Below are positions 6,859 through 30,110 of a stretch of DNA of 43,556 nt, piece after piece. The position numbers and the translations under genes were made by a program. Source of the stretch: Sorangium cellulosum (lineage in GTDB: Bacteria; Myxococcota_A; Polyangia; Polyangiales; Polyangiaceae); assembly GCA_020720045.1 (NCBI GenBank), contig DYPH01000039.1:1-43556 (forward strand). Direction: 5' to 3'. Below the pieces are notes generated by a model, which was not told the origin of the DNA, ran no database searches, and saw nothing but the letters and a program-made list of their open reading frames with translations. Numbering within the stretch: the first letter of the stretch is position 1; every line of letters starts with the position of its first letter.

Positions 6859-7785
6859 ATGCAGATCGCGATCATTGGCCTTGGCAAAATGGGTGGAAAT
6901 ATGGCGGCGCGGCTTGTCGCCAAGGGGCACACCGTCGTCGGGTTCGACCCGTCGGCGGAGACCCGCGCCAAAGTCGCTGCCCTCGGCGCCACCGTCGTCG
7001 CCTCCCTCGACGAAATCCCCGCCGCCCTGACCGCCGCAGGCCCCGGCCCTCGCGCCGCCTGGGTCATGGTCCCCGCCGGCGACGCCACCGAGAGCGTCCT
7101 CCAGGCGCTCGCCGGCAAATTCGCCGCCGGCGACATCCTGATCGACGGCGGCAACGCCAACTTCAAAGACTCGAAGCGCCGCGGCGAAACCTTTGCCGCT
7201 TCGGGGCTCCGTTTCCTCGATGCCGGCACCTCCGGAGGCATCTGGGGGCGCGAAAATGGCTATTGTTTGATGGTCGGCGGGGACAAAACCGCCTTTGATC
7301 ACCTAGAGCCGCTCCTCCTCGACCTTTCGCCGGGCAAAGAAGGCCTCGGCTATTTCGGCACCGCCGGCGCAGGCCACTACGCGAAAATGGTCCATAACGG
7401 CATTGAGTACGCCATGATGCAGGCCTACGCGGAGGGCTTCGACCTCCTCGCCGCCAGCGACTACGGCTACGATCTCGCCAAGTTGGGCACCGTCTGGGGT
7501 CGCGGCAGCGTCGTCCGCTCCTGGCTGCTTGATCTCGCCGTCAATGCCTTCACCAAAGACCCGAAGCTTGAGCAAGTGCAGGGCTGGGTCGAAGATTCCG
7601 GCGAAGGGCGTTGGACCGTCGAAGAGGCAATCGCGCGAGCGGTCGCCGTGCCGACGATCGCCGCCTCGCTTTTTGCCCGCTTTTCTTCGCGGAAGCCGAA
7701 CGCCTTCTCAAACCGCTTTCTTGCCGCCCTCCGTCGCGAATTCGGCGGCCACGCCGTCAAGCCGGCGGCGACGGAGGCCAAGTGA
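6859..7785 (+). CDS. gnd: 6-phosphogluconate dehydrogenase, decarboxylating (short form)
   Basis: Converts 6-phosphogluconate to ribulose 5-phosphate and CO2, the third step of the oxidative pentose-phosphate pathway, in the cytosol. 308 residues, the length of the short GndA-type enzymes rather than the ~470-residue form. Nucleotide-binding GLGKMGGNMA is at residues 7-16, the substrate motif DGGNANF at about 96-102, DAGTSGGIWG at 121-130, and the catalytic Lys in HYAKMVHNG at about 176. The residue ending strand beta-2 is Asp30 (GFDPS); an acidic residue there usually means NAD+ rather than NADP+. ATG 6859 follows GGGAGA. It is the first gene of gnd-zwf-opcA-pgl, and its stop overlaps the zwf GTG. 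Confidence 0.95.
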   Translation: MQIAIIGLGKMGGNMAARLVAKGHTVVGFDPSAETRAKVAALGATVVASLDEIPAALTAAGPGPRAAWVMVPAGDATESVLQALAGKFAAGDILIDGGNANFKDSKRRGETFAASGLRFLDAGTSGGIWGRENGYCLMVGGDKTAFDHLEPLLLDLSPGKEGLGYFGTAGAGHYAKMVHNGIEYAMMQAYAEGFDLLAASDYGYDLAKLGTVWGRGSVVRSWLLDLAVNAFTKDPKLEQVQGWVEDSGEGRWTVEEAIARAVAVPTIAASLFARFSSRKPNAFSNRFLAALRREFGGHAVKPAATEAK

Positions 7786-9314
7786 GCAACCCCCTCCGCG
7801 AAGGCCTCGAAGCGGGGCGCGTCGTCCCCCCCTGCACGGTCGTCATCTTTGGCGCCGGCGGCGATCTCACCCGCCGGAAGCTCATGCCGGCCCTCTACAA
7901 CCTCGCCGTCTCACGGGCGCTCCCCGGCGGCTTCGCCGTCGTCGGCATTTCGCGCGGTGAGAAGAGCGACGACGCCTTCCGCGAAGAAATGCACGAAGCG
8001 GTCGGCACTTTCTCGCGCAAGAAGCCGATCGATCCCGGCATCTGGACCGACTTCGCCCCCGGCCTCTTTTTCCAAGCAGGCGCCTTTGGCGAGGCCGAGA
8101 CCTACGCAAAACTCAAAGAGCGTCTTGAGACGATTGAATCTTCCCGCGGGACGAAGGGGAACCGGCTCTTCTATCTGGCGGTCCCCCCGTCGGAAGTTCG
8201 GGGAATTGTAGAAGGTCTCCGTGGCGCTGGCCTCGTCGAGAAGCACACGTCAATCAGCGAACTCCCCTTTACTCGCATTATCGCGGAGAAGCCCTTCGGC
8301 CACGATCGTGCCAGCGCCGCCGCCCTCAACGGGCTCCTCGGCGAGGTTTTTGGCGAGCGCCAGGTCTTCCGTATCGACCACTACCTCGGCAAAGAGACGG
8401 TCCAAAACCTCCTCGTCTTCCGTTTTGCCAACTCGCTCTTTGAGCCGCTCTGGAATCGCGAACACGTCGATCACGTGCAGATCACCGTCGCCGAAGACAT
8501 CGGCGTCGAGGGTCGCGGCCGCTTCTACGAGCAGACCGGCGCCCTCCGGGACATCGTCCAGAACCACGCCCTCCAACTCCTCTGCCTCACGGCGATGGAG
8601 CCGCCGATCTCGCTCCATGCCGACGCCGTTCGCGACGAAAAGGTAAAAGTTCTTCGGAGCTTGCGCCCCCTCGGTCCGCGTACGATCCGTTCGAGTGTCG
8701 TCCGCGGCCAGTACACGGGCGGCTTCGTCCGTGGCGACGAGGTCCCCGCCTACCGGCAAGAGCCCGACGTCGCCGGCGAATCGAGCACGGAGACCTTCGT
8801 CGCCATGCGCGTCTTCGTCGATAGCTGGCGTTGGGGCGGCGTCCCCTTCTACGTGCGCGCCGGCAAGCGCCTCAATCGCCGCGCAACGGAAGTGGCGATC
8901 CATTTCAAACGGGTCCCCCACGCCATTTTCCCCGTCCCCGATGGTGGAATCTCGCCGAACGTCCTCACGATGCGCATCCAGCCCGACGAACAAATCGCGC
9001 TGCGCTTTACGACGAAGGAGCCGGGGCAGAACACCGTTCTTCGCGACGTCGCCATGGACTTTCGCTACGGCTCGACCTTCGGATCAAACACGCCCGAGGC
9101 TTACGAGCGCCTCCTTCTCGACGCCATGCGCGGCGACGCGACGCTCTTCACGCGCGCCGACGAAGCCGAGCAGCAGTGGGCCTTCGTCGAGCCGATCCTC
9201 GCCGCCTGGCAGGAGAATCCGACGCCGCCGCCGATGTACGACGCCGGCTCCTGGGGCCCTGAGGCCTCCCACGAACTCCTCGCCGCCGACGGACGCCGCT
9301 GGAGGAAACCGTGA
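7782..9314 (+). CDS. zwf: Glucose-6-phosphate 1-dehydrogenase
   Basis: Oxidises glucose 6-phosphate to 6-phosphogluconolactone with reduction of NAD(P)+, the entry step of the oxidative pentose-phosphate pathway. 510 residues, normal for the family. The N-terminal Rossmann motif GAGGDLT is at about 24-30, followed by RRKL; the signature RIDHYLGKE, with catalytic and substrate-binding His/Lys, is at about 197-205. The start is GTG 7782, overlapping the gnd stop as GTGA; the frame is open further upstream inside gnd but has no reason to be used. Its own stop overlaps the opcA GTG in the same way. Confidence 0.96.
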   Translation: MSNPLREGLEAGRVVPPCTVVIFGAGGDLTRRKLMPALYNLAVSRALPGGFAVVGISRGEKSDDAFREEMHEAVGTFSRKKPIDPGIWTDFAPGLFFQAGAFGEAETYAKLKERLETIESSRGTKGNRLFYLAVPPSEVRGIVEGLRGAGLVEKHTSISELPFTRIIAEKPFGHDRASAAALNGLLGEVFGERQVFRIDHYLGKETVQNLLVFRFANSLFEPLWNREHVDHVQITVAEDIGVEGRGRFYEQTGALRDIVQNHALQLLCLTAMEPPISLHADAVRDEKVKVLRSLRPLGPRTIRSSVVRGQYTGGFVRGDEVPAYRQEPDVAGESSTETFVAMRVFVDSWRWGGVPFYVRAGKRLNRRATEVAIHFKRVPHAIFPVPDGGISPNVLTMRIQPDEQIALRFTTKEPGQNTVLRDVAMDFRYGSTFGSNTPEAYERLLLDAMRGDATLFTRADEAEQQWAFVEPILAAWQENPTPPPMYDAGSWGPEASHELLAADGRRWRKP

Positions 9315-10609
9315 GCGGCCCCCGTATCGCGGCGCTCCTTGGGCGCCTCGAAGGGGAGCTGCGCACGCTCCGTGACGGCGAAAAATTCAGCAATAAGAGC
9401 CGAATTTCCGCCGGAAATCTCGTCTTCGTCTGCACGGCGCGGAGCATCGCGAACCGGTACATCTCCGTCGTCGACGAAATGGCCCAGCGCTTCCCGTCGC
9501 GGGCCTTCTTCGTGGCCGTCGAGGGGGCGCCGACCGGCAGCCGCTCCAGCGCCGACTCGTCCACGCGCTTGGATTTGCTCGGAGAAGGGGCCGCCGTGCG
9601 GATCCTCAGCGCCCAGCAGCTCGAGGCCCAAGACGACGAAGGGCCGCGCAGCATGATGGGGCTCGCCGGCGACTCGGCGCCACTCCCCTCGATGGAAAAT
9701 GCGGCCGATGCACGAATGAGTGTCGACGTCGATGGGCGTGTTTACGCCATTGAGACCGACGCCGATGGTCTCTCCGACCGCGTCGATATTCGTGGACCGC
9801 GCGCCTTCGCTCGGCACCTCGCGAGCGCCGTCGACGCCCTCGTGCTCCCCGAACTGCCGGTCATCCTCGTTTGGGTCGGCACCGCCCGGGCCGACGATGG
9901 CGTGTTTCAGGCGTTCAACGACGACACCAAACGAGTCATCACCGACAGCGCCTACGCCGGACTCGATTCGCTCCTCTCCATCTTTCAGTGGACCCAGGAA
10001 GCCGACACCCGCCCGCGACTCTCCGACCTCGCTTGGGTCCGTCTCGGCCCCTGGCAGGAGCTCACCGCGCGCTTCTTTGACGACGACCGGAGCCCGCTCC
10101 TAGACGTCCTCGATCGCATTGAGATCTCCCATGCCGCCGCCGACGTCGGCTTTCAGCCGCCCGACTGTGCGCTCTTCACCGCCTGGATCGCAAATCGGCT
10201 CGGAGCGACCCTTGAGCGCGATTCCTTTGGGTACATCGCGCCCCAGAAGAACGGCCGCCGGTTCCCAATCACTGTGACGCCGGTTCCGCGACCAAAGGGG
10301 GTCGCGCCCGGTACGCTCGCCTCGGTGCGTTTCCTCGCAAAAAGCAACGAATTTACCGCACAAATCAAGCGCGATCTCGGGACCGGCCGCGGCGATCAGA
10401 CTGCGGACGCCGACCTTCTTCATTGGCACATCGCCGACGGGGTGACGGTGCTGGAGCAGACGATTCGTCTCCACTCCAACAAAGTCTCTTACTGGCTCGA
10501 TCGCACGGTACGCCGCCCCGACGAAGAGCCCCTTTTCGTCGCCGTTCTGAAGACGCTTCTTGCAATGGACGCCGCCCAAGATCGCGCCCAGGAGTCCCTC
10601 CGTGGCTAA
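9311..10609 (+). CDS. opcA: Glucose-6-phosphate dehydrogenase assembly protein OpcA
   Basis: 432 residues. OpcA is best known from cyanobacteria and actinobacteria, where it binds and activates or assembles Zwf, sometimes under redox control. The assignment rests on position directly after zwf plus OpcA-like segments (LVFVCTARSIANRY, LPVILVW, a central helical region, and the C-terminal WHIADGVTVLEQTIRL). No catalytic motif is expected. The start is GTG 9311, overlapping the zwf stop by four bases. The stop TAA (10607-10609) lies past the pgl GTG, so all four genes of the operon are translationally linked. Confidence 0.85.
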   Translation: MSGPRIAALLGRLEGELRTLRDGEKFSNKSRISAGNLVFVCTARSIANRYISVVDEMAQRFPSRAFFVAVEGAPTGSRSSADSSTRLDLLGEGAAVRILSAQQLEAQDDEGPRSMMGLAGDSAPLPSMENAADARMSVDVDGRVYAIETDADGLSDRVDIRGPRAFARHLASAVDALVLPELPVILVWVGTARADDGVFQAFNDDTKRVITDSAYAGLDSLLSIFQWTQEADTRPRLSDLAWVRLGPWQELTARFFDDDRSPLLDVLDRIEISHAAADVGFQPPDCALFTAWIANRLGATLERDSFGYIAPQKNGRRFPITVTPVPRPKGVAPGTLASVRFLAKSNEFTAQIKRDLGTGRGDQTADADLLHWHIADGVTVLEQTIRLHSNKVSYWLDRTVRRPDEEPLFVAVLKTLLAMDAAQDRAQESLRG

Positions 10610-11324
10610 TTTTGACGTCCGCGTACGCAACCCGGGCGTAATCGTCGAAACGGTCACCACCCATCTCGTTGGCAGCATCGACGAACGCCTCGATAACGCG
10701 AGCATTTGCAACGTCGCCCTCTCCGGCGGGACGACGCCGAAGGCGGTCTACGAAGCGCTCGGCCGGAACACGACGACCGAGTGGTCCCGGGTCGTCTTTT
10801 GGGAGGTCGACGAGCGCGCCGTCCCGGAAGAGAGCCCGCGCAGCAACGCGCAAATGATCCGGAAGGCGCTCTCGCCGATCCTCGATCAAGGGGCCAAATT
10901 CTATCCGTTTTTCGGCGAGGGGGACCTCGAAGCGGCCGCGGAAGGCTACGCGGAACTCCTCGAAGGGGCCCTCGTCGGCGCGCCGCCACGCTTCGATGTC
11001 GTCCTCCTCGGCATCGGCGACGACGGCCACACCGCGTCGCTCTTCCCCGGCGACGGCACCATCGCCCTCGCCGGCGAACCGATGACGCGGGCCGTCCCCG
11101 CCGTCCCCGCCCAGGGGCGCGAGGCACGGCTCACCCTCAGCGCGACGACGATCCTCGCCGCGAGGGAGCTCCTGCTCCTGGCGACCGGCGCGAGCAAAGC
11201 CCCTGCCCTTGCTCGTCTTTTTGCCGACGAAGGCAGCGAGGAGGAGACCCCTTCCCGCCTCCTCCGTCGCGCCCGCAACCCCGTCGTCGTCTATCTCGAC
11301 GTCGCAGCCGGCGGGCGGGAGTAG
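10602..11324 (+). CDS. pgl: 6-phosphogluconolactonase
   Basis: Hydrolyses 6-phosphogluconolactone to 6-phosphogluconate, the second step of the oxidative pentose-phosphate pathway. 240 residues of the SOL/DevB type. NVALSGGTTPKAVYEAL near the N-terminus is the phosphate-binding loop and LGIGDDGHTASLFPG at about 137-151 is the family signature. The start GTG 10602 overlaps the opcA end by 8 bases, so the frame upstream of it is not used. With Zwf, OpcA and Gnd it completes the oxidative branch in one operon. It is convergent with rimO at only 4 bp, with no room for a dedicated terminator. Confidence 0.94.
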   Translation: MANFDVRVRNPGVIVETVTTHLVGSIDERLDNASICNVALSGGTTPKAVYEALGRNTTTEWSRVVFWEVDERAVPEESPRSNAQMIRKALSPILDQGAKFYPFFGEGDLEAAAEGYAELLEGALVGAPPRFDVVLLGIGDDGHTASLFPGDGTIALAGEPMTRAVPAVPAQGREARLTLSATTILAARELLLLATGASKAPALARLFADEGSEEETPSRLLRRARNPVVVYLDVAAGGRE

Positions 11325-20524: not shown

Positions 20525-20944
20525 TCAGCGCGAAGAGCGAGGCCCCTGTCCAAGGGGGCCCGCCGTCCCGTCGTCGCCGCTTGCAGGTCGCTTAAACTCG
20601 ACAGAAGTCCCCAGTTTTCCAAGCCTTCTCGCCTCAAGACAGCAAGGCGATCCCGGCTCGACGATGCGACAGTCTTCCGGGCGGATCGCGTAGATAAGGC
20701 AAGGGTAGTGGCCAGGGACGCTACGGTCGAGCGCCCCGCAGGCTTCGCCTTCATTCTTCACAAACCGAAAATAGGGCGGGTGAAGCTCGGTCCAGACCGG
20801 CAACGCTTTCCCCATGCGAACTTCGTCGCTCTCAAGGAGGTGGACAGTCTGCGGCCCATGATGGCAACAGCGCCCACAGGCGACGCAATCGTCGCCGTTG
20901 GCGGCCGGCTCCCCGGCAAGCGGCGTAAGTCCGACGACCGTCAC
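20525..20944 (-). CDS. YkgJ-type Cys-cluster (zinc/iron-chelating) protein
   Basis: 139 residues from GTG 20944, overlapping the kinase stop (GTGA). The family pattern is clear: CVACGRCC near residues 20-27, then an isolated Cys (EACGAL), YPCLIYAIRPEDCR and PCC. YkgJ/UPF0153 proteins bind a metal, probably Zn or Fe, through these Cys; their reaction is not established. The GTG start removes nine residues of frame that overlap the kinase gene. Translation coupling to the large kinase suggests a shared role, for example the metal protein acting in the same signalling response. Confidence 0.85.
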   Translation of the reverse strand: MTVVGLTPLAGEPAANGDDCVACGRCCHHGPQTVHLLESDEVRMGKALPVWTELHPPYFRFVKNEGEACGALDRSVPGHYPCLIYAIRPEDCRIVEPGSPCCLEARRLGKLGTSVEFKRPASGDDGTAGPLGQGPRSSR

Positions 20945-23900
20945 AGAAGCGGCCACTCCTGGCCCCGCCAACTACGCGCCAACCGCCCGAAATCGCGTTG
21001 AAGATCGGCCACCGAGGATCGCGCCGCCGGGTCCCGCCGAAGGGCCCCAAAGAGCAACTCGACGAACCCTTCGGCCTCCCGCCGCTTTTGGAGTTCGCGC
21101 AGCCCTGGGGGGAGACCGTCGTGGGCGAGGTGCCGCGCGATGATCGCCATGTCGTTCGGACCATCAAAGAGGATTTCACCGGTGAACATTTCGTAGGTCA
21201 AACAGGCAAACGCGTAAACATCCGCGGCAAGCGGCGAGAGACGAAGCGCCTCGGCCGTCGTTGCGCTCCAGATCTCCGGCGCCCCATAATTTCCCGTTGC
21301 GCAGCCGGCACGGAGCTTGCCCCCCGCGAGGCCGAAGTCGACGATCACCGGGCGGACTCCCCCGCCCTCCTGTTCGCGCAGAATGATGTTTGAGGGCTTG
21401 ATGTCGAGGTGGGCGACGCCGACGCTGTGCATCGACGCAAGGCCATCCAAGATCTGCGCAAGAACTTCAAAGACCTCGGGCGCGGTGAGCGAGCGTTGGG
21501 CGAGGGCGCGCTCCAGCGTCGTCCCCTCCACATACTCCATGACGAGGATCGGCTTCGGCTTCGCTCCAGCGTCAAACGTCACAAAGCGCGCCAAATTCCG
21601 ATGGGGTGGGACCCCAAGCAGCGCGGAAGCCTCCGCACGGAACAGCTCGAGGAACTCCTGTTCCGAGAGGGCACGTGCCGCATTTTCCGAATAATCAGGA
21701 ACCTTTAGCGCAAAGCGCTCTGCGTCTGGCTCGTGGCGCTCCTCGACGCGGCTCGTGAGAAACACCGAGCCGACCGCACCCGCGCCGACCGCGCGAAGGA
21801 CATAAAAACCGCCGAGGGTCCGACGGGGCGGAAGCCAGCTTGGCAGCGGCTCCGCGTTGCGCTCGACGTCGGCGTCAGCCCCGGCGGCAACATCGACGCG
21901 AAGGCGCGCGAGCCCGAGCACAACCTGCTGAACAACCAGGCGAATCGCTCGAGGAATTCGCTGCGTCCCCCCCTCCACGTACTCGCGGAGCGCCGTCGAA
22001 CGCAGCGGCTGTCGCTCGCCGTCGGCCCGCGCCACTGCCCCCGCAAGGAGGGCGCGCAGCGAGGCGTTGGGCGGCGGCACCGTGAGCCCGGTCGCCGCTT
22101 CAAAACGGCTCCGCGCGGTCGCGCACATTTGGGCGAGCCCGATAAGCGCCGTTTCGAGCCGCTCGAGGGGGTCGCCGTCGGCGCCGTTGGCGAGCGCCCG
22201 AAGCGACGGGGCCGAGGCGAGCGTCCGAAGCGCCGAAGCGAGCCGCGAGATCACCCCACGAAGGGCATCCCCACGACCGGACACGTCGGCAAACAGATCT
22301 TCGCCAAGTTTTTCAAATGCGGCAAGGAGCGCATCCCGCGTGGCGTTTGCCCCTTCCGGATCCCCCTCGGTCGCGTTCGCCAACAGTGCTTCGACGCGCG
22401 GAGAAAAACGTGCATAGTGCACGAGTGCCGCTTCGAGGTCAGGGTCGAGCGACGCCTCGGCGAGCGTTGCAAGATCGCTTGAACTTGGAACATGCAGCGT
22501 AAGGAGGAGGAACGCATCGGCGCGGTCGCTCGCTTCCGTGCGAACGAGCGCGTCGAGGGCGCGGGCGAGCGCCGCAAGAATGGTCCGCCGAAGTGCCTGC
22601 GGCGGCTCCGCGAGAAACCGCGAAAGAAGCGCCTTTGTAATCCGCACCCAGCGGGCACGATGGCGGGTTCTTCGCGACTCAACCGGACGCCCCGTCGCCG
22701 CTGGGCGCGGTTGACGGAGCTCCTCTTTGCCGTCGTCCTCGGCGACATCGCCGTCGGCAAGGCGGAGGAGCGCCCGAAGGCGTCGAAAATGGAGCCCCAA
22801 GTGGGAGCCGTCGGCCGTCGACGACTCCCGCGAAATGATCCAGTCGGCGACGCGCTCGCGAAGGGCATCGAGGTCGGCGTCGTAGGCGCGCGCGTCGGTC
22901 GCGTTCGGCGCGAGGTGGAGCAGCGCCGGAAGCGCAAACGTCTCTAGGAGCGCAGCCTCGACATCCCGAAGTGCAGCCACCTGTGTGCGACGGGCGAGAG
23001 CGCCCGCGCGGCCCGGTTCGCGCTCCTCCTCGGCGGTCGTCGTCGCGAGCCCCTCGACGGCGGCGGTGAGCCCCTCCAACAGCCCTTTCGCCTCCACGCC
23101 GGCCGCCCCCGCCCCTTCGCTTGCAAAGAGGGTTGCTGCACGGCGGAGCTGGTCTCGGAGCGGCTCGTCGTCCCGTCCACCGCTCGTTCGCTGCAGATCA
23201 CGAACAACTTCGCGCAGAATGGTGAGGGCGGAGTCGTCCTCCCCGTCGGCCGGGGTCGGCAAGCTCCCGACCGACGTCACCACCGAGATGGCGACGTTGG
23301 CGAAGATCGGGTGGGGGCCGAACTCATTCCGCGCATCGAGGAGCGCCTCGGCGAAGAAGTACGGGGGCGCGTTGGCGCAGAGTCGATCGACAAGCGCTTC
23401 CGCGGCATCTGGCTCGGCTTCAATCGCGCGAGGGAGCCCCCAAACAAAGGCGGAATAAACCCCGGGATCGCGCTGCGCGACGGCGACCATGCGCGGGAAT
23501 TCGCGGAAGGCCGCCTCCGGCTCCAGAGCAGCGCGCGCCGCGAGCGACGTCGCCCCACGCCGCCATTCCGTAGGGGAAAGTGAAGGATCGAGCGAATACT
23601 CACCCTCCGCCTGCCACTCGGGGACGAAGGGGGCGAGGAGGCCGCGCACAACGGCGACGCCGCGCCAGACAAGACCTTCGCGATCTGCCAAGAGGAGCGA
23701 GATCGTCGATTGAACGGCGTCACTCTGGAAGGTACGAACGCCCCCAAGATCCCCCTGACTCGCGCGCCGGGCCGCTTCTCGGGCGGCGCGCTCGAGGATC
23801 CGGGCCGCGAGACGGCGGTCGCTCAAACTTCCGGTGCGTGCACGATGCACCCACTCGCTCGCGAGCTCTTTTTTTGCAACAATTGCAAGGGCCAACCGAC

Positions 23901-24357
23901 CGTCGCCGACGACGGAGGCCAACGGTAGCTCAAACGTCAGCGCGATCCGCGCCCGCGACGCCGGCGTTGAAAGCGCCTTCGCCGACCCCTTCGCCATCTG
24001 CTCGGCCATCGCGCAAAACGTCGCCGTGTTCCCGCCATGGAGGCGCGCGATGACGCGGCGCCCCAGCTCGCGCTGCTCCTGCCCGGCGGGGAGCGCAGTC
24101 GCGAGCGTGTAGAGGGCGACGCCGGCAGCGGGGGCGGCCATCCAGTCGAGATCGTCAAACAATCCGCTGCCAAGCGCGAGCTGCACCGCCTCGATGAGCT
24201 TTGCGTCGTCGACCCCCTCGAGGACGCCCGGCCCGACCTCCTCGGCGCCACGGGCGAGCCCGAGCATCGCCGCGCGGAACGCCATGCGCGCCTCCACGCG
24301 GCTCTCGGCAGCGGGAAGGTCAAGGAGGCCGGTTACGTAACCGTGAGCGGATTTCAA
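20941..24357 (-). CDS. Giant Ser/Thr protein kinase with a C-terminal kinase domain
   Basis: About 1,138 residues if it starts at TTG 24357; ATG 24285 is an alternative, and the frame to 24576 runs into the divergent ABC-F promoter. The first ~845 residues are Ala/Leu/Arg-rich helices with no membrane segment and no recognised domain. The last ~290 are a Hanks-type kinase: Gly loop GAGAVGSVFL (about 857), FALKVPD (ATP Lys), catalytic loop HLDIKPSNII (about 982), DFG (about 1006) and GAPEIW. The catalytic loop has HLD rather than HRD. Most bacterial kinases of this group carry the kinase N-terminally, so the order is reversed. It is coupled to the YkgJ gene. Confidence 0.88.
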   Translation of the reverse strand: MKSAHGYVTGLLDLPAAESRVEARMAFRAAMLGLARGAEEVGPGVLEGVDDAKLIEAVQLALGSGLFDDLDWMAAPAAGVALYTLATALPAGQEQRELGRRVIARLHGGNTATFCAMAEQMAKGSAKALSTPASRARIALTFELPLASVVGDGRLALAIVAKKELASEWVHRARTGSLSDRRLAARILERAAREAARRASQGDLGGVRTFQSDAVQSTISLLLADREGLVWRGVAVVRGLLAPFVPEWQAEGEYSLDPSLSPTEWRRGATSLAARAALEPEAAFREFPRMVAVAQRDPGVYSAFVWGLPRAIEAEPDAAEALVDRLCANAPPYFFAEALLDARNEFGPHPIFANVAISVVTSVGSLPTPADGEDDSALTILREVVRDLQRTSGGRDDEPLRDQLRRAATLFASEGAGAAGVEAKGLLEGLTAAVEGLATTTAEEEREPGRAGALARRTQVAALRDVEAALLETFALPALLHLAPNATDARAYDADLDALRERVADWIISRESSTADGSHLGLHFRRLRALLRLADGDVAEDDGKEELRQPRPAATGRPVESRRTRHRARWVRITKALLSRFLAEPPQALRRTILAALARALDALVRTEASDRADAFLLLTLHVPSSSDLATLAEASLDPDLEAALVHYARFSPRVEALLANATEGDPEGANATRDALLAAFEKLGEDLFADVSGRGDALRGVISRLASALRTLASAPSLRALANGADGDPLERLETALIGLAQMCATARSRFEAATGLTVPPPNASLRALLAGAVARADGERQPLRSTALREYVEGGTQRIPRAIRLVVQQVVLGLARLRVDVAAGADADVERNAEPLPSWLPPRRTLGGFYVLRAVGAGAVGSVFLTSRVEERHEPDAERFALKVPDYSENAARALSEQEFLELFRAEASALLGVPPHRNLARFVTFDAGAKPKPILVMEYVEGTTLERALAQRSLTAPEVFEVLAQILDGLASMHSVGVAHLDIKPSNIILREQEGGGVRPVIVDFGLAGGKLRAGCATGNYGAPEIWSATTAEALRLSPLAADVYAFACLTYEMFTGEILFDGPNDMAIIARHLAHDGLPPGLRELQKRREAEGFVELLFGALRRDPAARSSVADLQRDFGRLARSWRGQEWPLL

Positions 24358-24493: not shown

Positions 24494-26164
24494 ATGATCC
24501 TGCTCGACAACGTCCAGAAGCGGTTCGGCCCGAAGATTCTCTTCGAAAACGTCACGATGCAGTTCGATCCCGGCAAGCGCTACGGCCTTACGGGGGCGAA
24601 CGGCGCCGGCAAATCGACGCTGCTCAAGATGCTTGGCGGCGACGAAGAGACCGACCAGGGGTCGATCACGATCCCGGGCAACATGCGCCTCGGCGTGCTC
24701 CGCCAGAACCACTTCGAGTACGACAAACAACGCATCATCGACGCCGTCCTCATGGGGAACAAGCGGCTCTGGTCGGCGATGCAGGAGAAAGAGCACCTCT
24801 ACACGCAAGAGATCACCGACGAAGTCGGCATGCGTCTCGGCGAACTTGAGGGCGTCGTCGGCGAAGAAGACGGCTACACCGCCGATTCACGCGCCGCCGA
24901 ACTGCTCATCGGTCTCGGCATTCCCGAGCGCAAACACAACGACACGATGAGCAGTTTGAGCGGCGGCTATAAGCTCCGCGTTCTCCTTGCTCAGGTGCTC
25001 TTTGGCGCGCCCGATGTCCTCCTCCTCGACGAACCGACGAACCATCTCGATCTCGAGTCGATCGCCTGGCTGGAAGAGTTCCTCATCGGCTACCCGGGCC
25101 TCGTGGTGACGGTTAGCCACGACCGTCACTTCCTCAATGCGATCGTCACCCACGTCGCCGACGTAGACTACCAGACGATCACCGTTTATACCGGTGATTA
25201 CGAGGACTTCGTCGAACAGAAGTACGACGAGCGCAAGAAGGCGGAGGCCCAGAATGCGGCGGCCAAGAAGAAGATTGCCGAACTCCAACAGTTCGTCGAT
25301 CGCTTCGGCTCCCACGCGTCGAAGAGCAAGCAGGCTCAGTCGCGTTTGAAGCAGATGGACAAGCTGGAAGTGAAGGATCTCAAACGTTCTTCACTCGTAC
25401 GACCCTTCGTGCGCTTTGAGTTCGAAAAGCCCTCGGGCCGTGACGTCCTCCGTATGGAAACCGTCACCAAGAGCTTCGTTCAGGACGACGGCACCACGCG
25501 CAAAGTCCTCAACAAGCTCAATCTCAACCTCAATCGCGGTGATCGCGTGGCGATCATTGGCCCGAACGGCGTCGGTAAATCGACGCTGTTGAAGCTCATG
25601 GTTGGCGCCCTCGACACCAAAGACCTGATGGGCGAGGCGCCGACGGTCCCCGATGATGGGACGGTCCGCTGGGGTTTCGACGCAAACGTCGGCTATTTCG
25701 CCCAAGACCACCACGAAGCGCTCGGCCGCACCGCCGCCGGGACGAACGCCTTCCAGTGGCTCTACCAGTTCGACAAGCTTCGCCCCCAGGAAGAGGTCCG
25801 CGGCGTCCTCGGCCGGCTGCTTTTCTCCGGCGATCAGGCGCTCAAGGACACGTCGTCCCTAAGCGGCGGCGAGTGCGCGCGCCTGCTCCTCGGGAAGCTC
25901 GTGCTCCTGAAGCACAACGTCTTGATCCTCGACGAACCGACCAACCACCTCGACATTGAGTCGATTGAAGGACTGATTGAAGGGCTCCAGCTCTTCAAGG
26001 GGACCGTCGTCTTCGTCGCCCACGACCGCCACTTCGTCAATTCGCTCGCCACGCGCATCGTCGAGCTCACGCCGAGCGACGACGGCGCCAAGGTGAACGA
26101 CTTCGGCGGAAGCTATGAGGAATTCCTCGAGCGCTTCGGCCGCGACTACGGCCGCAAAGAGTGA
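24494..26164 (+). CDS. ybiT: ABC-F family ATPase, YbiT type
   Basis: 556 residues, soluble, two ATPase domains and no membrane part: an ABC-F protein, acting on ribosomes during translation. Domain 1 has Walker A GANGAGKS at about 34-41, signature LSGGYKLR and Walker B VLLLDEPTNHLD. A helical linker holds FVDRFGSHASKSKQAQSR. Domain 2 has GPNGVGKS at about 356, LSGGECAR at about 456 and LILDEPTNHLD. Linker and insert match YbiT more than EttA or Uup. ATG 24494 (AGGGGC upstream) gives the family N-terminus MILLDNVQKRFG. A strong terminator follows. It is divergent from the giant kinase. Confidence 0.93.
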   Translation: MILLDNVQKRFGPKILFENVTMQFDPGKRYGLTGANGAGKSTLLKMLGGDEETDQGSITIPGNMRLGVLRQNHFEYDKQRIIDAVLMGNKRLWSAMQEKEHLYTQEITDEVGMRLGELEGVVGEEDGYTADSRAAELLIGLGIPERKHNDTMSSLSGGYKLRVLLAQVLFGAPDVLLLDEPTNHLDLESIAWLEEFLIGYPGLVVTVSHDRHFLNAIVTHVADVDYQTITVYTGDYEDFVEQKYDERKKAEAQNAAAKKKIAELQQFVDRFGSHASKSKQAQSRLKQMDKLEVKDLKRSSLVRPFVRFEFEKPSGRDVLRMETVTKSFVQDDGTTRKVLNKLNLNLNRGDRVAIIGPNGVGKSTLLKLMVGALDTKDLMGEAPTVPDDGTVRWGFDANVGYFAQDHHEALGRTAAGTNAFQWLYQFDKLRPQEEVRGVLGRLLFSGDQALKDTSSLSGGECARLLLGKLVLLKHNVLILDEPTNHLDIESIEGLIEGLQLFKGTVVFVAHDRHFVNSLATRIVELTPSDDGAKVNDFGGSYEEFLERFGRDYGRKE

Positions 26165-28532: not shown

Positions 28533-30110
28533 ATGGCAACCGTTCCCGTAGACGAAGGCAAAGTGCGCGCGTGCCGTGAGCTTGCCGCGAATATCGCGCG
28601 CGATGTGCAGGGATACATCAATCAGCACACGTCGGTCGGTGTAGAGCGCACGATTCTGCGCGCTTATGGCGCCGAAGGGGCCGACGCCGAAGGGGCGCCC
28701 CTCGTGAATTTGGCGGTTGACCGCTACAAGGACGCCGGGCTCCTCGATCGGGGGATCCTCTACTTCGTCGGCCGCGCGCTCCTCGGCGGGTCCCGAAGCG
28801 TCCAGGAAGCGGCGGAGGCGCTCGCCTACGGCGACCTCGACACCGGGGAAGGTGGCCCATCGCTTGAAGAAATTCGCGAAGCGCTCCGCCAGCCGACCAT
28901 CGACGCCCTCGCCCGCATCGACGGCGCCCGCGACCAGCGCGACGCCCTACGCGCAAGCTTCCCGGAGGCGCCAGCCCCTCACAAGTACGTGATCGTTGCG
29001 ACCGGCAACATCTGGGACGACGCCCTTCAGGCGAAGGCGGCCGCCTACGGGGGGGCCGACATCGTCGCCGTCATTCGCGCTACCGCGCAATCGCTCCTCG
29101 ATTACGTCCCCGATGGCGCCACCACCGAGGGCTTCGGCGGCACGTTTGCGACGCAGGAAAACTTCAAGATCATTCGTAAAGCGACGAATGAAGCGGCGAA
29201 AGAGTACGGGCGTTACATCCAGCAGACCAACTATTCTTCCGGCCTCTGCATGGCGGAGATTGCCTGGATGGCGGCCGTCGAGGGGCTCGACATGCTCCTC
29301 AATGATGCCATGTACGGCATCCTCTTCCGTGACATCAACCCATGCCGCAACTTCGTCGATCAGTACGTCGCCCGACGCATTATCGGCCGCGCAGGCATCA
29401 TCATTAATACCGGTGAAGACAACTACTTGACGACTGCCGATGCCGTCGAGAAGGCGCACACAGTCCTCGCGAGCCAGTTCATCAATGAGGCTTTTGCCCA
29501 CAATGCGGGCGTCTCCGACGAGAAGCTTGGGCTCGGCCACGCCTACGAAATCAATCCGTCGATTGAGAACAGCTTTCTCTTCGAGCTGTCTCAAGCTCAG
29601 CTCATTCGTCAAATCTTCCCCCAGCACCCGATCAAATGGATGCCGCCGACGAAGTTCAAGACGGGAGACATCTTCCAGAGCCACGTCCACGACGCGATGT
29701 TCAACCTGGTCGGCGTCATGACGAACCAGAGCATCGAACTCCTCGGGATGTTCAGCGAGGCGATCCACAACCCGATGTTGATGGATCGCTTCCTCAGCCT
29801 CAAAGCGACCAAGTACGTCTTCAACACGGCGAAAGACTTCGGCGACGAGATCGAGTTCAAGAAGGACGGGATCGTCGCGAAACGCGCGGTGCAGGTCCTC
29901 GATGAAGCGCTTGAGCTCCTCCAAACCGTTGAAAAAGAAACGATTTGGGGAGCGATCGCCCGTGGAGATTTCGCCGACGTAAAGCGCCTTCGGGATGGCG
30001 GCAAAGGCTATAAGGGGGTCGTTGCGCGGCATCCCGAGTATCTGAATCCTCTATTGAGCCTCCTCGAAGGCGATGCAAAAGGCGGCGAAGCTGCCGGAAC
30101 GGGGGGTTGA
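28533..30110 (+). CDS. kamD: Lysine 5,6-aminomutase, alpha subunit
   Basis: 525 residues. With KamE it moves the terminal amino group of D-lysine or L-beta-lysine from C6 to C5, using adenosylcobalamin and PLP, a step known from anaerobic lysine fermentation. The large subunit provides the TIM-barrel active site. Conserved blocks include NQHTSVGVERTILRAYG, GGADIVAVIRATAQSLLDYV, NYSSGLCMAEIAWMAAVEGL and the C-terminal PTKFKTGDIFQSHVHDAMFN. I use ATG 28533; six extra codons to 28515 lack support. The kamE ATG follows the stop by one base, so the subunits are made together. No other lysine-fermentation gene is in the window. Confidence 0.94.
   Translation: MATVPVDEGKVRACRELAANIARDVQGYINQHTSVGVERTILRAYGAEGADAEGAPLVNLAVDRYKDAGLLDRGILYFVGRALLGGSRSVQEAAEALAYGDLDTGEGGPSLEEIREALRQPTIDALARIDGARDQRDALRASFPEAPAPHKYVIVATGNIWDDALQAKAAAYGGADIVAVIRATAQSLLDYVPDGATTEGFGGTFATQENFKIIRKATNEAAKEYGRYIQQTNYSSGLCMAEIAWMAAVEGLDMLLNDAMYGILFRDINPCRNFVDQYVARRIIGRAGIIINTGEDNYLTTADAVEKAHTVLASQFINEAFAHNAGVSDEKLGLGHAYEINPSIENSFLFELSQAQLIRQIFPQHPIKWMPPTKFKTGDIFQSHVHDAMFNLVGVMTNQSIELLGMFSEAIHNPMLMDRFLSLKATKYVFNTAKDFGDEIEFKKDGIVAKRAVQVLDEALELLQTVEKETIWGAIARGDFADVKRLRDGGKGYKGVVARHPEYLNPLLSLLEGDAKGGEAAGTGG

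Follow-up and report, generated by a model that had tools for sequence, protein, structure and literature searches.

Hanks-type kinases are numerous in myxobacteria, at tens to hundreds per genome, and most have no known role. The window analysed here, a stretch of 43,556 nucleotides from Sorangium cellulosum, contains the gene of a kinase whose catalytic domain lies behind a very long N-terminal region, and the stop codon of this gene overlaps the start of a small cysteine-cluster gene. The locus raises two questions, namely what the long N-terminal region is and whether the two proteins work together. The reading we favour, and hold to be probable though well short of certain, is a solenoid-scaffolded, cytosolic, non-RD Hanks-type kinase accompanied by a metal-cluster protein that is optional and co-expressed. 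The features are listed in Table 1.

Table 1. Features of the kinase locus (positions in the window)
Feature	Position	Strand	Basis or detail
Solenoid-Hanks kinase gene, 1138 aa, TTG start, TGA stop	20941..24357	-	Translation, Pfam, end-to-end homologs, AF2
Predicted all-helical HEAT/ARM-like solenoid, residues 1-822	21892..24357	-	AF2; weak PDB shape matches
C-terminal Hanks-type Ser/Thr kinase domain, residues ~851-1130	20968..21807	-	PF00069, invariant residues, PknB fold
CxxCxxCC (YkgJ-like, PF03692) gene, 139 aa, GTG start	20525..20944	-	Profile match
GTGA stop/start overlap	20941..20944	-	GTG 20944-20942, kinase TGA 20943-20941
Divergent ABC-F family ATPase gene; conserved upstream neighbour within paired clade	24494..26164	+	

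The kinase gene and its catalytic domain

The TTG taken as the start of the kinase gene (24357) lies at the same point as the starts in relatives (VKGPWTYVSGLLDL, MKGPWDYASGLLDL), in which GTG or ATG occupies the corresponding position. The exact start is somewhat doubtful because a clear Shine-Dalgarno site was not found upstream of this TTG. Dozens of relatives align with the kinase over its full length at 38-50% identity, and orthologs of the YkgJ-like protein, 61-97% identical, are likewise aligned end to end; neither gene is therefore a chance open reading frame. Hydropathy analysis of both proteins revealed a transmembrane-like segment in neither. The term 'giant' is generous, since several longer open frames with kinase domains are present in the genome. 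The description of the architecture as reversed is fair: among the 30 best-scoring of the 122 kinase matches in the genome, a sample biased toward classical kinases, no other has more than ~400 open residues ahead of the domain.

Pkinase (PF00069) is the sole Pfam match in the protein, covering residues 853-1119 with E = 1.7e-28 and 100.2 bits against a cut-off of 31.7. The motifs present are the glycine loop GAGAVG, K885, E909, H983-L984-D985, K987, N990, D1007-F-G and E1028 of the APE motif. Within the catalytic loop HLDIKPSN, the H, L, D, K, P and N are invariant in an alignment of 69 relatives, as are K885, E909, D985, N990, D1007 and E1028 across the 69 aligned rows. Both the domain match and the complete set of catalytic residues (VAIK Lys, alphaC Glu, HxD Asp, Asn, DFG and APE) place the protein among the Hanks-type kinases, and the original prediction of a C-terminal Ser/Thr kinase domain with an HLD catalytic loop was correct. 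As HLD replaces HRD, the enzyme is a non-RD kinase. Judged by these residues, it appears catalytically intact and we expect it to be active.

The closest solved folds are those of mycobacterial PknB and PknA (Z 27.3 and 3.0 Å over 255 residues for PknB), and structures of this type were also found by sequence (E 6.7e-20). With PknB and other Hanks-type kinases (PF00069; PDB 5u94, 1o6y) the protein shares the kinase fold and the full catalytic residue set. In contrast to the PknB type, its kinase domain is C-terminal, behind an 820-residue solenoid, a PASTA match is absent and HLD stands in place of HRD. Assignment to the PknB-type PASTA kinases was rejected (NF033483, 92.1 bits against a cut-off of 450). 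An antiphage identity (MAD6, PD-T4-6 or PglW) was rejected as well, since the matches are to the generic part, the kinase domain, and score well below their cut-offs: the MADS antiphage kinase MAD6 (NF047741) scored 98.4 bits against 460, its best match being limited to the kinase region, and BREX PglW (NF033442) 57.9 bits against 990.

The predicted N-terminal solenoid

About 845 unassigned helical residues had been predicted ahead of the kinase domain, and this description holds. Residues 1-850 (~840 N-terminal residues) have no Pfam or NCBIfam match of their own. A Pfam search with 31 N-termini, from the window protein and 30 relatives, gave weak and inconsistent single matches, none of them reproducible, and no reproducible match to a HEAT/ARM profile; a comparison of the N-terminus with PDB sequences by profile gave nothing significant. 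AF2 modelled residues 1-822 alone, with 69 homologs, as an all-helical structure with a pLDDT of 92.3 and a pTM of 0.92. The full-length model has a pTM of 0.74, and its residues 825-834 have a pLDDT <50, consistent with a flexible linker at ~823-845 that would join the solenoid to the kinase.

Structure searches with the full-length model were swamped by kinase domains, and the N-terminus was therefore folded and searched alone. Foldseek and VIA-align listed SF3B1, karyopherins, FANCI, CAND1, beta-catenin, ATM and mTOR, none of which matched well; the best Foldseek hit had an E of 4e-4 with poor superposition and the best VIA-align Z was 8.1. A library of viral structures yielded no match at E <0.001. 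These weak matches suggest that the modelled N-terminal region is a HEAT/ARM-like alpha-solenoid in shape, and we use the label as a description of shape because a Z of this size among helical repeats may reflect a mere common arrangement. A well-known repeat domain with a fixed function would have spoken against the original prediction: the predicted shape is indeed a well-known one, but it does not imply a fixed function for this kinase. The best-conserved stretch of the solenoid, residues 180-270, contains R181, R182, D225, R226, E227, W231, W265, R266 and R267 and is, from its conservation, likely to be a functional site.

A long helical solenoid followed by a C-terminal kinase domain is also the layout of PIKK kinases such as ATM and mTOR, segments of which are among the weak solenoid matches. 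Unlike in PIKK enzymes, however, the kinase domain here is Hanks-type (Pkinase/PknB-like), and the Pfam result contains no PI3K-type family. The resemblance, at Z <8, is best described as an analogy in solenoid shape without kinship.

Distribution of the family and of its cysteine-protein neighbours

Full-length or near full-length homologs of the kinase are present in 50 of the 59 nearest genomes. A search at class level found the family in 27 of 115 genomes, including two further families outside the order of the window, and in a sample of the phylum it was found in 18 of 141 genomes, every match lying inside that order and other classes of Myxococcota in the sample yielding no relative. A GTDB scan gave 143 kinase loci, of which the best 80 were retrieved. 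The genome sets of the 59-genome homolog search, the YkgJ ortholog search and the GTDB scan overlap, and their counts are not additive. Most genomes have one copy and a few have several (G043, G045). Records with the family are named Labilithrix, Sorangium (cellulosum So ce26), Polyangium, Minicystis rosea and Sandaracinus. One record within the paired clade described below, titled Nannocystis exedens (L144), is a metagenome-assembled genome and may be mislabelled. The kinases form an unnamed family that is mostly vertically inherited and so far found in one class of Myxococcota only.

Eukaryotic-like kinases number 99 in M. xanthus and 317 in S. cellulosum, and synteny among seven myxobacteria has been noted for a single kinase region, pkn4 (PMC2887360). 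The kinase studied here belongs to the same large kinome but differs from its other members in its solenoid N-terminus and its conservation across several families of the class. This conservation and the unusual solenoid-first layout make it a good candidate for membership of the core kinase set rather than the accessory one.

The downstream gene overlaps the kinase gene by the predicted GTGA and is preceded by AGGAG upstream of its GTG, an arrangement that is consistent with translational coupling without proving it. Its product matches PF03692 (E = 2.9e-6; 28.3 bits against a cut-off of 23), and nothing beyond the cysteine domain was detected in its 139 residues. Eight cysteines are conserved (20, 23, 26, 27, 69, 82, 92 and 102), and the orthologs retain the CX2CX2CC motif. 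This motif with four more conserved cysteines is a likeness to both the CxxCxxCC/YkgJ family and the flagellin methylase FliB, in which a comparable motif binds [4Fe-4S] (PMC8598068). The FliB motif is CX4CX3CC, in contrast, and the YkgJ-like protein has only 139 residues and is not known to transfer methyl groups. The analogy makes a metal or Fe-S cluster probable in the YkgJ-like protein.

In a tree of 78 kinases, all those with a downstream YkgJ gene fall in one clade of 26 (support 99), in which 18 are paired. The spacing in this clade is short and both genes are on the same strand, several pairs having 4-base overlaps and most others lying within ~20 bases; the pair persists down to 45-50% kinase identity. 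Pairing is therefore conserved outside the genome of the window, in at least 11 genomes that the tree places in one clade. The orthologs in the cultivable relatives Sorangium cellulosum So ce26 (L163) and Minicystis rosea (L150) have no YkgJ neighbour. Literature on CxxCxxCC/YkgJ proteins, FliB and myxobacterial kinomes, in which few subscription papers were covered, contained no description of the kinase family or of the pair.

A second pairing occurs elsewhere in the kinase tree, in a well-supported clade of its own (L162/L104, L180 and L191/L105), in which a CxxCxxCC gene is located directly upstream of the kinase, 21-54 bases away on the same strand. Its product passes PF03692. In a tree of CxxCxxCC proteins the YkgJ proteins encoded downstream are a clade to themselves (100/98), and those encoded upstream cluster with other members of the family; by their sequences, the two sets are different subfamilies and the pairings independent. 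Both types are carried by G043 and G056, where the YkgJ ortholog is located elsewhere. The CxxCxxCC proteins are the sole non-kinase neighbour cluster common to both deep kinase clades (43 clusters in the second clade). Outside the paired clade the neighbours of the kinase vary (43 neighbour clusters) and give no hint of a substrate. A fixed operon across the kinase family was rejected on account of this variation, and a role for the ABC-F protein as a third functional partner is unsupported beyond one clade.

Functional tie or inherited gene order

The original prediction of a two-protein signalling unit survives in part. The pairing recurs and there is a second, independent one, but in most of the kinase family no CxxCxxCC gene is adjacent, YkgJ outlives the kinase, and the presence of the two genes is uncorrelated across 59 genomes (15/2 against 35/7; Fisher p = 1). 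A CxxCxxCC neighbour is a recurrent but dispensable feature of the family, and because most members are without one it cannot be a general requirement. The main alternative is that the two genes are adjacent by inherited gene order alone and share a transcript in one clade with no common function. We regard this as a serious contender, if somewhat less apt to be right than wrong. Much of the genomic evidence agrees with it. Even within the paired clade, YkgJ is missing from at least five members (L129, L144, L149, L151 and L194) whose downstream sequence extends beyond 1 kb. In one genus (g5), YkgJ is intact where the kinase between it and the ABC-F gene is missing (G005) or reduced to a 187-residue remnant (G154). 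YkgJ orthologs lie apart from the kinase in G012, G043 and G050, and in G056 YkgJ is in a short contig with no kinase beside it. In three species (L130, L133 and L136) an opposite-strand PknB-type kinase gene sits between the two genes, and within the paired clade the ABC-F neighbour is retained about as well as YkgJ. Moreover, the genome is rich in kinases: with ~122 matches, ~0.2 kinase neighbours are expected for five CxxCxxCC genes, and caution against over-interpreting gene proximity to kinases in Sorangium has been advised (PMC2887360). Set against inherited order are three members that keep YkgJ though the ABC-F neighbour is gone (L128, L139 and L159) and, above all, the other pairing, which is independent and involves a different CxxCxxCC subfamily. 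The probability of the latter arising by chance is ~0.02 (43 clusters x ~3 CxxCxxCC genes in 6000), a rough and partly post hoc estimate. No other observation argues as strongly for a functional tie between the kinase and the CxxCxxCC protein.

Two further alternatives assign YkgJ a definite activity. In one, which we consider unlikely, the pair would be a redox- or metal-gated module, the CxxCxxCC protein with an oxygen-sensitive Fe-S cluster (or zinc) docking on the solenoid and switching the kinase. The overlapping genes, the two independent pairings, the eight conserved cysteines and the Fe-S motif of FliB (PMC8598068) would suit such a module; the many unpaired family members and the persistence of YkgJ after loss of the kinase argue against it. 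Its broadest form, a bacterial family of HEAT-solenoid kinases of PIKK-like layout that respond to oxygen, iron or redox state and are gated by small Fe-S proteins of the CxxCxxCC type, brought into their operons at least twice independently, strikes us as quite unlikely. In the other, YkgJ would be an enzyme that modifies the kinase or components of translation, by Fe-S methyl transfer as in FliB or by a different reaction, and the ABC-F gene would belong to the same context. FliB is a precedent, and YkgJ adjoins ABC-F or, where alone, valS-like, RNA helicase and pseudouridine synthase-like genes (identified by eye). These neighbours are anecdotal, however, and a protein of this size with only a cysteine domain makes an enzyme improbable.

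We believe that the solenoid-scaffolded kinase with an optional metal-cluster partner best accommodates the evidence on both sides. From the architecture, recognition and regulation would fall to the solenoid, which would bind a partner or substrate; it may deliver or position this partner for the tethered kinase, or restrain the kinase. The CxxCxxCC protein would then probably be a small protein with an Fe-S or metal cluster that is expressed together with the kinase in one clade. It would be optional, whether as partner, substrate, adaptor or sensor input, rather than an obligatory subunit. If it regulates the kinase, a poorly understood Fe-S-type family would be tied to phosphorylation signalling, and the two independent pairings render such a link directly testable. 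One further case of a kinase gene next to a CxxCxxCC gene was found on contig C1.

Loss and additional copies of the solenoid kinase

In two of the genomes compared, the solenoid kinase has been lost while both of its neighbours, the divergent ABC-F ATPase gene and the gene for the CxxCxxCC protein YkgJ, were retained. At locus L225 of G154 the kinase is reduced to a remnant of 187 residues between intact ABC-F and YkgJ genes, and at locus L108 of G005 no solenoid kinase lies between the two, which are again intact. Multiple additional full or partial copies were found in one genome, G043 (L122, L123, L124 and L125), two of them retaining just the second half of the solenoid.

Neighbouring genes in relatives and on contig C1

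In Labilithrix-like genomes (L130, L133 and L136), the solenoid kinase and YkgJ are separated by a PknB-type kinase gene that lies ∼1.5 kb downstream of the former and is encoded on the opposite strand. A different branch of the family has, immediately 5′ of the solenoid kinase and on the same strand, a gene for a MutS-like protein of ∼625 aa with a MutS_V match; the gap between the two genes is 0–1 base at some loci. On contig C1 of the window's own genome, another CxxCxxCC gene adjoins, tail to tail, a different kinase gene, which carries a zinc-ribbon-like CPSCG...CEACG motif at its start.

Coordinates of the features described
Feature	Location	Strand
Kinase remnant, G154	L225:8532-9092	
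Tail-to-tail gene pair, C1	L116:4784-6856 and about 6860-7500	+ and -
MutS-like gene	L094:6423-8294; also L165, L169, L171, L172, L177, L186, L190, L197	
OpcA-containing gene run	window 6859-11324	
D-lysine 5,6-aminomutase alpha subunit	window 28533-30110	

Other genes in the window

In one gene run, an OpcA-type glucose-6-phosphate dehydrogenase subunit is encoded together with a gene of the 6-phosphogluconolactonase type; by eye, the two upstream genes of the run resemble 6-phosphogluconate and glucose-6-phosphate dehydrogenases. The window also encodes the alpha subunit of D-lysine 5,6-aminomutase (PF09043, E 1.5e-231). This enzyme of the lysine-fermentation type was unexpected, and an ABC-2 transporter-like gene lies nearby.
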